Shown here in pieces: positions 3,635-40,432 of a DNA stretch of 40,432 nt. Position 1 is the first letter of the stretch. The number at the start of each line of letters is the position of its first letter. Source of the DNA: Hyphomonadaceae bacterium (GTDB lineage: Bacteria > Pseudomonadota > Alphaproteobacteria > Caulobacterales > Hyphomonadaceae). Position numbers and translations under genes: made by a program. Where the stretch lies: contig JAIXRO010000171.1 of the NCBI GenBank assembly GCA_027485145.1, positions 1 through 40,432 of the forward strand. The letters run 5' to 3'. Below the pieces are notes generated by a model that worked only from the letters and a program-made list of their open reading frames with translations, had not been told where the DNA came from and did not search any database.

Positions 3635-4177
3635 TCAGCCCTTGGCGAAACGGATTTCGCCGGGGGCAAGGCCTTCGAGCGTCCACTCGCCGACCTGCAC
3701 GCGGATCAGGCGCAGCGTGGGGTGTCCCACGGCAGCTGTCATGCGGCGCACCTGGCGGTTGCGGCCTTCGGTGATCTGCAGTTCGATCCAGCTGTCCGGC
3801 ACGGACTTGCGGAATCTGATCGGCGGATCGCGGGGCCAGATGTTGTCCGGATCCGGCAGCGCGCACACCTTGGCTGGACGGGTCATCCCGTCCTTAAGCT
3901 CAACCCCGGTGGCCAGCGCGTGCAGCGCGGCTTCGTCAGGGATTCCTTCGACTTGCGCCCAGTAGGTCTTGGCAAGGCTGTGCTTCGGGTCGCTGATGCG
4001 CGCCTGCAGCGGGCCGCTGTCGGTGAGCACGACGATGCCTTCTGAATCATAGTCGAGCCGTCCGGCCGGATAGACGTTCGGCACCGGCACGAAATCCTTC
4101 AGCGTGCGCTTGCCGCTGCCTTCATCCGTGAACTGAGAGAGCACGTTGAAGGGCTTGTTGAGCAGGATGATCTTCAG
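3635..4177 (-). CDS. rluE: 23S rRNA pseudouridine synthase, RluE-like
   Basis: A stand-alone RsuA/RluE-family pseudouridine synthase lacking an S4 domain. E. coli RluE makes pseudouridine 2457 in 23S rRNA. Conserved blocks are the start [17 protein letters not shown], the catalytic-Asp motif GRLDYDSEG (Asp42), the segment [14 protein letters not shown] and the C-terminal [23 protein letters not shown]. The start is unusual. The family N-terminus falls on a CTG at 4177-4175 whose last two bases are the first two of the kdsA TGA stop (CTGA overlap), and GAGG lies 7 bases upstream. The only in-frame ATG (4258) would add 27 residues from out-of-frame kdsA sequence that look unlike the family. I therefore prefer CTG, giving 180 aa, with translational coupling to kdsA. 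Function is secure; the exact start is inferred. Confidence 0.9.
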
Positions 4178-5019
4178 TTGACCGCCTCGTGCAGCGTCTT
4201 GAGGGTCGAGAGCAGGCTTTCCGCCTCCGACAGGGCGAGGCAGCTCGGTGCGTCGCACAGCGCCTTGTCGGGATCGGTGTGGAACTCGAGGAAGACGCCG
4301 TCCGCGCCGGCCGCCACGGCCGATTTCGCGATGATCGCGACGCCGTCGCGGCGTCCGCCCGTCGACGCGCCGCCGGTGCGTGGGTCTGCGCCGGGCAGCT
4401 GCACGGCGTGGGTCGCATCAATCGTCACCGGCGCCCCCAGCTTCTTCATCTCGGGGATCGCCAGCATGTCGACGATCAGGTTGTTGTAGCCGAAGCTGAC
4501 ACCGCGTTCGCAAAGGATCACGCCGACGTCGGGCGCCACTTCGGCGATCTTCGACAGGATGTTCTTTGCATCCCACGGCGCCATGAACTGCGCCTTCTTG
4601 GCCTGGATCAGCGCGCTGTGTTTCGCAGCCGCCTCGGCGGTCGCGATCACGAGATCAGTCTGGCGCACGAGGAATGCCGGAAGCTGAAGGATGTCGGCGA
4701 CTTCAGCCACCGGTTCGGCTTGGTGCGGCTCATGCAGGTCGGTCACGATGGGCACACCGAGCTTCGCCTTGACGCTGGCCAGGACCTTCAGGCCCTCGAT
4801 GCCAGGGCCGCGATAGGACTTGATCGAAGAGCGGTTCGCCTTGTCCCAGCTTGCCTTGAACACGTACGGCAGGCCGAGGCGCGCGCAGATGCGTTTGAGT
4901 TCGGTGCCGACTTCCAGCGCAAGGGCTTCGTCCTCCAGCACGTTCAGCCCGGCCATGACAGCGAGCGGTTTGCCGGTGCCGACGGACCAGCCGGAGGCCT
5001 TGTGGGTGACGACGCTCAT
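4174..5019 (-). CDS. kdsA: 3-deoxy-D-manno-octulosonate 8-phosphate synthase
   Basis: KdsA condenses phosphoenolpyruvate with arabinose 5-phosphate to give KDO 8-phosphate, the precursor of the lipid A-core linker sugar, in the cytoplasm. The full family pattern is present: [62 protein letters not shown] and the C-terminal [11 protein letters not shown]. Asn26 (in AGLNVLED) occupies the position of the metal-ligand Cys in metal-dependent enzymes, so this should be the metal-independent class, as in E. coli. The start at ATG 5019 (281 aa) has GGAG 7 bases upstream; an upstream in-frame ATG at 5049 would add MAAAAITEFK and lacks a good site. The stop overlaps the rluE start. The usual pyrG or eno neighbours are absent. 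Confidence 0.96.
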
Positions 5020-5076
5020 TTTGAACTCCGTGATAGCTGCGGCTGCCATAGCGGAAATCGGCTGAGGCGCAAAAGG

Positions 5077-5095: not shown

Positions 5096-5129
5096 AAACA
5101 AAGAAGCCGCCCTGTCGAAGGGCGGCTTC
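5094..5129 (-). terminator. Intrinsic terminator of the 26-codon gene
   Basis: A perfect 11-bp stem, GAAGCCGCCCT (5103-5113) with AGGGCGGCTTC (5119-5129) and a 5-base loop, is followed on the minus strand by TTTGTTTCT. It ends a minus-strand transcript before kdsA. Confidence 0.85.
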
Positions 5130-5186
5130 CGTGAGCCCCGTGGGGCCCGTCAGGTCGGGACGCGTTTCGACGTCCAACCCATGTCT

Positions 5187-5267
5187 CTAGGCGCTGATCA
5201 GAGGCTGCTCCAGCCAGACACCATAGGACACAGACCCAACGGCCTCACCTGGTTTCTCACTCGACAT
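5187..5267 (-). CDS. 26-aa peptide of unknown function with an extreme Shine-Dalgarno
   Basis: This minus-strand frame of 26 codons starts at ATG 5267 and ends at TAG 5187. The peptide begins MSSEKPGEAV and ends VWLEQPLISA, with a GSVSYG centre; it has an acidic N-terminal half and a hydrophobic, Trp-containing C-terminal half. There is no signal peptide and no Cys. Three things argue that it is a real gene: a 14-base perfect Shine-Dalgarno 0 bases beyond normal spacing, a strong terminator about 60 bases downstream, and a second strong terminator upstream that insulates it from the RcnB-like gene. I do not recognise the family. It could be a small regulatory or membrane-interacting peptide, a modified-peptide precursor (no maturation enzyme is near), or a leader peptide. 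Existence as a transcription unit is well supported; translation is inferred. Confidence 0.6.
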   Translation of the reverse strand: MSSEKPGEAVGSVSYGVWLEQPLISA

Positions 5268-5281
5268 GGATCACCTCCTTT
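5268..5281 (-). promoter_or_regulatory. Full-length Shine-Dalgarno for the 26-codon ORF
   Basis: The minus strand reads AAAGGAGGTGATCC directly before the ATG. This is the exact complement of the last 14 bases of typical bacterial 16S rRNA (GGATCACCTCCTTT). The AGGAGG core is 6 bases from the start codon. Ordinary genes in this window have 4-6 base matches. Confidence 0.85.
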
Positions 5282-5402
5282 CACGCGTGCATGGGCACGA
5301 ACTTCGTCCTGGACTATCCGGGACAGGATCGAACTAAGCATGATTTGCGCCAATGTGAAGTTAACAACGTGGTGAAAGCTGCGCATTTGGCGCGCTGCGC
5401 CC

Positions 5403-5441
5403 AAAAAATGCCCGGGAGGTCCTTTTGGGACGACCCGGGCA
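5403..5441 (-). terminator. Intrinsic terminator of the RcnB-like gene
   Basis: The outer stem TGCCCGGG / CCCGGGCA (5409-5416 and 5434-5441) and inner GTCC / GGAC pair around a TTTT-containing loop. On the minus strand it is followed by six T residues. It lies 38 bases after the stop of the gene at 5479-6015. Confidence 0.85.
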
Positions 5442-5478: not shown

Positions 5479-6015
5479 TTAATCTGAGGCGATCGCGCCG
5501 ACGACGAGACCGATGATGGCCCCGGTGGCGACCGAGGCGAGAATGGCATCGCCCCGGTCATTATCACGGACCCAGTGATAGCCGTGCGGCGGCTCGTAGA
5601 GTCCGTAATGGTCGTAATCGTTGATATAGACCGTGCGGCGGGGGGCGTAGCTGTAATAGTGGCCGACATCGTAGCGCGGATAGTATCCGGACGAGTAGTA
5701 CGGGCCATAGGAATGGCCATACGTGACGGTCACCGAGCTGCGTGGGTAGTAGTAACGCGGCTGGTACACAACCACGTCGCGCCGGCGGTAATCCCGGTAG
5801 TCGTGCCGGTCATGCCGGTCGTAACCGCGCCAACGGTCATGATCATCGTACCGGTCACGGCCCCGGCGGCCGCGATGGTCGTCATCCCCGCCGCGCCGTT
5901 CCCAGCCGCCGCGGTCGTGGTCCCGGTCCCGGTCAGCCTGGGCGACCGGGGCAAAGATGAAGCCGGCTGCCGTTGCCGCGGCAACGAACCGGGTAATGGT
6001 TTTCGTGAACGACAT
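5479..6015 (-). CDS. RcnB-like secreted protein, Tyr/Arg/Asp/His rich
   Basis: A secreted protein of 178 aa. It has a signal peptide (MSFTKTITRF then an Ala-rich hydrophobic core ending VAQA), a long low-complexity part rich in Asp, Arg, His and Gly (about residues 27-80), a Tyr-rich part (about 80-140) and the C-terminal motif YEPPHGYHWVRDNDRGDAIL followed by a hydrophobic Gly/Ala/Ile segment. The PPxGYxWV motif and layout match the RcnB family (periplasmic protein linked to nickel/cobalt homeostasis in E. coli), a family widespread and mostly uncharacterised in alphaproteobacteria. His/Asp richness is compatible with metal binding, but nickel function is not shown. It is a single-gene unit with its own terminator. 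The frame continues upstream through arfB antisense, so the start is set by the signal peptide. Confidence 0.85.
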   Translation of the reverse strand: MSFTKTITRFVAAATAAGFIFAPVAQADRDRDHDRGGWERRGGDDDHRGRRGRDRYDDHDRWRGYDRHDRHDYRDYRRRDVVVYQPRYYYPRSSVTVTYGHSYGPYYSSGYYPRYDVGHYYSYAPRRTVYINDYDHYGLYEPPHGYHWVRDNDRGDAILASVATGAIIGLVVGAIASD

Positions 6016-6153: not shown

Positions 6154-6588
6154 ATGAGCGAATTTGGCGATTTGCGGATTTCTGACACGCTGACGGTTCC
6201 GGCCTGGGAGCTCAGCGAGGCGTTTGTGCGCGCGTCCGGGCCGGGCGGGCAGAATGTGAACAAGGTGTCGAGTGCGGTCCAGCTGACGTGGCAGGTCGCG
6301 GCGTCGTCCTTGCCGGCGGCCATCAAGGAACGGTTCCAGAAGCTCTATGGCAGCCGGATCACCGCCGATGGCCGCTTGATCCTCGAAGCGAGCGAACATC
6401 GCAGCCAGATCCAGAACCGGCAGGCGGCGCGGGAGCGCCTCGGCGAGATGATCCTGAAAGCCTCGGTTGCGCCGAAGCGCCGGATCAAGACGAAACCGAC
6501 CGCCGGCAGTGTTCGCCGCCGGATCAAGGAAAAAAAGAAACGCGGCGAAGTGAAATCGCTGCGCGGCAGCGTGACCGGGGAAGACTAG
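6154..6588 (+). CDS. arfB: Alternative ribosome-rescue factor / peptidyl-tRNA hydrolase ArfB
   Basis: ArfB (YaeJ) enters stalled non-stop ribosomes and hydrolyses the peptidyl-tRNA. The 144-aa product has the class-I release factor catalytic motif GPGGQNVNK (GGQ at 31-33), the conserved ASSLP..IKERF and EHRSQIQNRQAA segments, and the basic C-terminal tail (RRRIKEKKKRGEVKSLRG) that in E. coli lies in the empty mRNA channel. It lacks the codon-recognition domains of RF1/RF2, and its length fits E. coli ArfB (140 aa). Start ATG 6154; no strong Shine-Dalgarno is visible. The stop is just upstream of a dispersed palindromic element. Confidence 0.94.
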   Translation: MSEFGDLRISDTLTVPAWELSEAFVRASGPGGQNVNKVSSAVQLTWQVAASSLPAAIKERFQKLYGSRITADGRLILEASEHRSQIQNRQAARERLGEMILKASVAPKRRIKTKPTAGSVRRRIKEKKKRGEVKSLRGSVTGED

Positions 6589-40364: not shown

Positions 40365-40432
40365 TGGAGCGGGTGAAGGGAATCGAACCCTCGTATTCAG
40401 CTTGGGAAGCTGCTGCTCTACCATTGAGCTAC
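40365..40432 (-). tRNA. tRNA-Gly (CCC), truncated at the 5' end by the window edge
   Basis: On the minus strand the sequence runs GTAGCTCAATGGTAGAGC, the loop TTCCCAA with anticodon CCC, then GAGGGTTCGATTCCC and acceptor CACCCGC-T-CCA. The first six acceptor bases lie beyond the right edge. It closely resembles E. coli glyU. Confidence 0.94.

Follow-up and report, generated by a model that had tools for sequence, protein, structure and literature searches.

A divergent relative of the CC2171 RNA with an extended Shine-Dalgarno arm and a short reading frame in Hyphomonadaceae

What is the role of an isolated 26-codon reading frame that is preceded by a ribosome-binding site matching the 3' end of 16S rRNA over 16 bases? 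The question arises on the minus strand of contig JAIXRO010000171.1 of a Hyphomonadaceae bacterium (assembly GCA_027485145.1), of which positions 1 to 40,432 were analysed (the window, 40,432 nucleotides in all). The element is interpreted here as the local representative of a CC2171-related family that occurs across the Alphaproteobacteria, whose members are structured, stand-alone RNAs with a length of some 150-250 nt.

The element and its complementarity to 16S rRNA

The minus-strand frame of 26 amino acids described in a first-pass annotation of this DNA was recovered at 5187-5267 (ATG 5265-5267, stop TAG 5187-5189), where 26 codons encode MSSEKPGEAVGSVSYGVWLEQPLISA, and the complementarity of 16 bases claimed for its ribosome-binding site was found at the same coordinates, 5267-5282 (minus strand), where GAAAGGAGGTGATCCA is the perfect complement of the 16S 3' end TGGATCACCTCCTTTC. 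The parts of the element, from 5' to 3', are:

5335..5365, minus strand: promoter-like block GTTAACTT..TTGGCGCAAATCATGCTTA, kept in same-genus loci
5286..5299, minus strand: 5' hairpin CGTGC...GCACG just upstream of the Shine-Dalgarno arm (RNAalifold columns 51-65)
5267..5282, minus strand: Shine-Dalgarno arm GAAAGGAGGUGAUCCA, complementary to the 16S 3' end over 16 nt without mismatch
5187..5267, minus strand: open reading frame of 26 codons, ATG..TAG
5256..5260, minus strand: 5' strand of the closing helix P1, GUGAG, codons 3-4, pairing with 5131-5135 (RNAalifold columns 92-96 with 219-223, 27/27)
5180..5232, minus strand: hairpin spanning the second half of the reading frame and the stop codon (RNAalifold columns 120-172)
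5131..5135, minus strand: 3' strand of P1, CUCAC, directly before the terminator
5102..5130, minus strand: intrinsic terminator, 12-bp stem GGAAGCCGCCC..GGGCGGCUUC with a U-rich tail

The draft genome of the window (G000) contains no assembled 16S 3' end, the element being the sole match of TGGATCACCTCCTTTC there, and the match was therefore checked in congeners. In five of the six same-genus genomes searched (G004, G007, G015, G018 and G036), ...CTGCGGCTGGATCACCTCCTTTCT / GCTGGATCACCTCCTTTCT occurs at a site apart from the element, with 16-base complementarity, and we take this site to be the 16S 3' end; in the sixth (G063) the element alone matched. The comparison of the Shine-Dalgarno sequence with the strain's own 16S end, proposed in the first-pass annotation, thus gave agreement in five congeners, with G063 and G000 showing the element alone. 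The pattern BGAAAGGAGGTGATCC (its B rules out the A found before this motif on the antisense strand of 16S genes) has a single match in each of 84 genomes among the 249 of the order, and in each of 55 among the 385 of the class; the reversed pattern has none (0/249 and 0/385, respectively). The arm pattern is commoner than chance, and a few of its places are 16S antisense or unrelated. Among the 104 members that were not fetched by the exact arm pattern, the perfect 16S-complementary run is at least 15 nt long in 61, 10-14 nt in 42 and 8 nt in one. A test of whether changes in the arm are G-U compatible with 16S rRNA did not discriminate and was dropped. An origin of the element as an artefact or as antisense 16S sequence was rejected because it has conserved flanks of its own.

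The same arm gives rise to a serious if unlikely rival explanation, namely that the RNA is a sponge or antisense RNA whose exposed GGAGGU pairs in trans with small RNAs that have CCUCC-type anti-Shine-Dalgarno loops, and so derepresses their targets. Alphaproteobacterial small RNAs often use CCUCC loops, and the arm core is the least variable part of the element (GGAGGTG was seeded by the script, yet it is present in all 30 CM-fetched loci). Sponging of SisA-D by CrfA, by another sequence, is reported for C. crescentus in passages of PMC12559287. The complementarity, however, extends past CCUCC to GAUCCA and GAAA, which 16S rRNA explains and a CCUCC loop does not, and a sponge would have no need of a start codon and a fixed length of reading frame.

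The predicted duplex of the arm with 16S rRNA (16 bp) has an energy of -28.4 kcal/mol, compared with -11.6 kcal/mol for an 8-nt Shine-Dalgarno sequence. Such stability would also suit a hibernation-type RNA that caps the 16S 3' end, its arm shielding the tail of idle 30S subunits from 3'-5' exonuclease (RNase R), and passages of PMC10901742 report that, in vitro, 16S rRNA was better protected against RNase R with a Shine-Dalgarno oligonucleotide; the protein encoded downstream of the element in Bosea (L217) is RNase R-like by eye. Capping is nevertheless judged decidedly improbable: it makes both the start codon and the conserved stop unnecessary, and just one of 16 inspected loci had an RNase R-like protein next to the element.

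In a protein search of 61 genomes, the reading frame was detected at E 3.2e-3 or better in 30 of the 37 genomes from the same genus, and the 24 from elsewhere in the order gave no match. With a DNA query, the RNA was found in six of the seven remaining congeners, as a 26-codon frame in G003, G019, G024 and G025 and as partial copies at contig ends in G026 and G030, and no element was found in G001 (84% complete). Codons 3, 4, 14, 16, 18 and 20-22 and the stop codon are identical in 30/30 same-genus sequences, with no synonymous change, and the amino acids of codons 7-13 and 23-26 vary; the alignment shows a constraint on nucleotides, not codons. RNAalifold analysis of 27 same-genus sequences predicts two 5' hairpins, the hairpin in the second half of the reading frame, P1, some short helices and the terminator, and also places a 3-bp hairpin inside the Shine-Dalgarno arm; a both-sided change is kept in 11 of its 62 pairs. 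The hairpin at 5286..5299, in which five pairs are kept in 27/27 sequences and one pair has a UA/CG compensatory change in six, is genus-specific, many other clades having a UUCAACA-like sequence there. The hairpin at 5180..5232, with both-sided compensatory changes at column pairs 121-171 (10 sequences) and 122-170 (8 sequences, with 4 broken), agrees with the unchanging TAGAGA. Within the genus P1 does not vary and therefore has no covariation support there.

A block resembling a promoter lies upstream of the element in 28 of 30 same-genus loci (L001-L030), with varying sequence adjoining it, and is replaced in L021 and L030, both of which carry an insert there. No match to the sigma-70 consensus was found; for the block we infer a promoter function, with transcription expected to start just downstream. 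A sigma-54-like reading, made by eye, was not kept because the GC of its -12 part is lost in L008, L013, L015 and L016. The first-pass annotation had placed the unit between two terminators: the downstream one stands (5102-5130) and is kept in same-genus alignments, and the upstream hairpin (5403-5441), located between the element and an RcnB-domain gene (5479-6015, minus strand), belongs behind that gene, whose transcript it would end.

In three of the 37 same-genus genomes, an insert of about 2.0, 3.2 or 4.1 kb splits the gene right after the arm and start codon (L333 in G004, L334 in G012, L338 and L341 in G024). Each end of the insert carries the arm and start codon, as at an integration site in an RNA gene; the inserts of G004 and G012 have no integrase among their open reading frames of at least 100 amino acids (by eye), three of which match no Pfam family.

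Relationship to CC2171 and distribution

The first-pass annotation recognised no family, but the element aligns to Rfam family RF01867 (CC2171, a Caulobacter sRNA) at 18.8 bits (E 0.049, cmscan with a relaxed threshold), far short of the gathering score of 75 bits. It shares with RF01867 the core arm, the start codon and the following UGUC, as well as a helix that runs from after the start codon to before the terminator, predicted as GUGAG/CUCAC in the window and in 27/27 sequences of the genus. Matches to RF01867 at E values up to 1 were found in 194 of 249 genomes of the order, an inflated number, as the same search also gives matches in 6 of the 14 genomes used as controls (Bacillus subtilis and Thermotoga maritima among them); the Rfam cut-off is passed in 33/249 genomes of the order and in one control genome. 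Scores reach 48.8 bits in other genera of the window's family, the match falls on the element itself in G015 (28.8 bits) and G022 (25.9 bits), and the cut-off is passed by five of 18 named loci scanned (L217, L222, L250, L267 and L275); a homologue above it exists in Caulobacter.

A core model (R1), based on sequence only, with 41 positions, was built from 43 of 60 candidate stretches from across the class, none from the same genus; the rest, mostly with other spacing, were left out by hand. R1 finds the element of the window as its sole match in G000 (E 1.4e-4), and has 106 matches in 105 of 385 genomes of the class (E 5.3e-4 or better, hand count), of which a handful (e.g., G391, G394, G541 and G618) cover little beyond the arm and may not be members. 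The second match in one genome (G276:C1:805103-805139, E 3.9e-8) is possibly a true second copy. Among 349 genomes of the phylum, 22 outside the class match at 18-20.4 bits, 21 of these matches ending at model position 28 and one (G798) covering positions 3-22; matches resembling 16S antisense (about 18 bits, positions 12-28) were set apart. A pattern scan of named genomes yielded at least 119 stretches (L201-L319), and among the matches listed, five are labelled outside the Alphaproteobacteria, two only as Proteobacteria (L214 and L230) and the rest as groups of Alphaproteobacteria, including a Hyphomonadaceae bin (L249) that carries the MSSEKPG type. The five are L216 and L316 (Phycisphaerales), L269 (beta), L290 (Nitrosomonadales) and L279 (Terriglobia), all from metagenome bins, some of which may contain mis-binned contigs.

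The family is spread over the Alphaproteobacteria, usually with one copy per genome. The element is a divergent relative of RF01867 and not an orphan, and it is considered very probable that it is a structured RNA of the CC2171 kind in which a short reading frame is conserved. The Rfam entry, the only name found for the family, lists CC2171 as an sRNA gene, and its source is probably Landt et al. (2008). Landt et al. is cited in a passage of PMC5988900, CC2171 is a table row in the Rfam 15 paper (PMC11701678), and a 215-nt intergenic RNA-seq transcript of Mesorhizobium huakuii 7653R, MH_s33, is tabulated as RF01867 (PMC5596092), which speaks for transcription in a relative. Neither a reading frame nor a function of CC2171 is described in the literature searched.

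Translation and the closing helix across the class

The loci fetched by the arm alone (L061-L124 and L171-L200) number 94, of which 79 are distinct, and 75 of the 79 have a start codon at +16 or +17 from the start of the pattern (ATG 53, GTG 21, TTG 1). A start codon is missing there from L117 and L176 and from L121 and L191, the last two being 16S antisense. Changes of one base in spacer length keep the start codon (ATCCATG, ATCCAATG, ACCAGTG). Loci L201-L319, fetched with a pattern that demands the arm and ATG or GTG, are for that reason no evidence for either; stop codons were not selected for. The lengths of the reading frames by clade, obtained without conditioning, are 18 codons in 32 of 34 listed SHG (sphingomonad-type) members, with stops of all 34 being TAA 17, TGA 16 and TAG 1; 18 codons in 10 of 10 listed SRV members (TGA 5, TAG 4, TAA 1); and 26 codons in 58 of 65 SSE (MSSE-type) members, with stops of all 65 being TAG 48, TGA 10 and TAA 7. 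All 34 SHG and eight of the 10 SRV members come from L201-L319. Ten loci (L117, L121, L176, L191, L173, L178, L192, L241, L279 and L216) were left out of the wobble, pN/pS and length counts, and the same ten together with L316 were left out of the permutation, single-sequence-folding and run-length counts and of the R1 candidate stretches, as non-members or doubtful. Constancy of the start codon and of the length of the frame, with exchange of stop codons, suggests that translation is selected.

The same cannot be said of the product as readily. Ratios of pN/pS are 0.60-1.19 in the seven groups with at least 14 sequences, and 0.70-3.43 in smaller groups. The two large MSS groups have ratios of 0.60-0.61 and a slight excess of third-position differences (38% of differences), so that some peptide constraint is possible in these two; in most groups beyond them the excess is absent or a deficit. 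An ordinary small-protein gene, in which the peptide of 26 amino acids is the product and the long Shine-Dalgarno sequence serves high expression, would accord with the conserved start, stop and length and with the 26-codon MSS group (pN/pS 0.61). It is judged improbable: ratios are 0.81-1.19 in the five other groups with at least 14 sequences; there is almost no synonymous change at invariant codons inside the genus; L114, L128 and L180 use a different frame (by eye) for GGAGCARCC, which encodes EQP in the window; and changes in the N-termini (MSSE or VSHC) go along with changes in the P1 strand that pairs with them. Clear conservation of the peptide is lacking, and it appears to be weakly selected or not selected. 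The first-pass annotation had named conservation of only the Shine-Dalgarno sequence, and not of the frame, as evidence against its reading; in the event the start codon, stop position and length are kept, and the amino-acid sequence not clearly so. Translation of a short frame is therefore preserved more tightly than what the frame encodes, and the RNA itself bears much of the constraint on the element. An internal anti-Shine-Dalgarno sequence in the frame (ACCUCC-like) gave only a weak signal (15.25 versus 13.09 for shuffles; above in 36 of 44 types). A different gene, VRISAFVLAAAMLVAAAGAAFAEGG..., was observed in L192 and L241, encoding 57 amino acids that are signal-peptide-like by eye, with a full-length arm as its Shine-Dalgarno sequence.

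Outside the genus, P1 could be assessed by exchange of its strands. A terminator-like hairpin is present in 288 of 297 sequences with a start codon, and since only sequences without a start codon (4/301) or a terminator (9/297) were dropped, this set of 288 still holds doubtful rows. When codons 2-6 are paired with the 22 bases preceding the terminator, the top-scoring helix averages 14.0, compared with 9.97 for partners exchanged across N-terminal types and 10.4 for shuffled sequences; 252 of the 288 score above the mean of the exchanges. With one sequence for each of 44 N-terminal types, the score with the own partner is 12.19 versus 9.76 permuted, and 0 of 500 permutations reach the observed value in each of 20 draws. 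The control stretch 5' of the Shine-Dalgarno sequence gave no signal (9.71 versus 9.60, mean p 0.44). Codons 7.7-11, meant as a control, also scored (14.37 versus 11.83), which may be due to extra pairing or stem extension or to relatedness among types. Examples of the paired strands are UCAUUGUC/GACAAUGG, CAUGGUC/GACCAUG, AUGAGAUU/AAUCUCAU and CGAGAUC/GAUCUCG. In single-sequence folding, the probability of P1 exceeds 0.5 in only 31 of 77 members, and P1 is therefore better supported by covariation than by energy; for the Shine-Dalgarno sequence, the mean probability of being unpaired is only 0.38. The element may have both an open and a closed state.

Neighbourhood, proposed function and comparison with known systems

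In the window, the terminator at 5102-5130 is followed by kdsA (DAHP_synth_1 domain, 4174-5028), which raises the possibility of a kdsA leader peptide or attenuator, in which the position of the ribosome on the short frame would control read-through of the terminator. By tblastn, kdsA lies within the fetched flanks of 26 of loci L001-L029, but of only 28 of all 301 loci (the flanks being about 1.5 kb in many), and other genes, judged by eye, flank the element in the 16 loci inspected from other orders (SMC-like, ArfB, cyclopropane-fatty-acid-synthase-like, RNase R-like and others). The leader is very unlikely because the downstream gene is not conserved. Of the three roles suggested in the first-pass annotation, a strong translation unit and a ribosome-sequestering RNA thus survive, and the leader peptide falls away. 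Because its neighbours change, the element is read as an autonomous gene and not as a leader of kdsA, and the changing neighbours argue for a stand-alone role.

One neighbour recurs more widely. An RF-1-domain gene, arfB (ArfB by sequence, of the ribosome-rescue type), is near the element in 56 of 301 loci. In 40 of these, of MSSE type, it lies upstream and on the opposite strand; in the other 16, of Rhodobacterales type (among them L207, L212, L214, L262, L272 and L296), it lies downstream and on the same strand. The copy in the window is at 6154-6588. This proximity is possibly old synteny and possibly a functional link. At the far end of the window, a tRNA on the minus strand (40368-40432) is cut off.

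Comparison across the loci shows an arm, a start codon, a fixed stop, a closing helix, a terminator and an autonomous gene. Start and stop are kept while the peptide changes, which points to engagement of ribosomes, and not to the peptide, as the way in which the RNA acts. The explanation favoured here, held with somewhat less than even confidence, is a structured, translated RNA selected for engagement of the 30S subunit. Its 5' arm would capture 30S subunits by holding the single-stranded 3' tail of 16S rRNA; initiation at the start codon would have to open P1; and the ribosome would make a short throw-away peptide and leave at a fixed place. If the selected property is such engagement (occupancy, load or trapping) and not the peptide, the RNA would act as a decoy or sensor for free 30S subunits. 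Ribosome profiling of C. crescentus counts against a translated RNA: according to passages of PMC4117421, in which CC2171 is not named, most of its non-coding RNAs come from intergenic regions that are untranslated.

The comparison shows a family that spans much of the Alphaproteobacteria; most genomes with a member have one copy, its Shine-Dalgarno sequence is exceptionally long, and its start and stop are kept more than its peptide. If it binds 30S subunits, this would be a natural RNA addressed to the anti-Shine-Dalgarno sequence. Passages of the same study place a Shine-Dalgarno sequence at only 24.6% of coding sequences of C. crescentus (PMC4117421). A tentative and rather doubtful extension is that the RNA is a class-wide, ribosome-addressed regulator that captures or caps 30S subunits where most genes lack a Shine-Dalgarno sequence, its peptide-neutral mini-frame, opened against the closing helix, serving to gauge free ribosomes or to switch translation between Shine-Dalgarno-led and other modes.

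Structured RNAs that contain a short reading frame and have their own promoter and terminator are familiar from RNAIII/hld, SgrS/SgrT and rnTrpL/peTrpL; their peptides are functional, whereas that of the element is not clearly conserved. Closest is CC2171 itself (RF01867), which has the same arm, UGUC after the start codon, a long-range closing helix and a terminal hairpin, but differs in the letters of P1 (CAUUGUC/GACAAUG, as opposed to GUGAG/CUCAC in the window) and in the length of the frame, which is 26 codons in the window and 19-27 in the best RF01867 loci (L031-L060; 21-22 in 26 of 30). The likeness of MH_s33 is by its assignment to RF01867; it is only tabulated, and the passages of PMC5596092 concerned mention no reading frame, 16S complementarity or function. 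The extended Shine-Dalgarno sites of Staphylococcus aureus, as described in passages of PMC13009471, likewise pair with the anti-Shine-Dalgarno sequence beyond the canonical length near starts, including those of small reading frames, but they add two base pairs in many genes, whereas here the pairing covers about 16 nt and belongs to a structured RNA found at a single site in each genome. CrfA of Caulobacter is, like the element, an independent small RNA gene, in a related bacterium, and acts by titration; its partners, however, in the passages of PMC12559287 are the small RNAs SisA-D and not rRNA.
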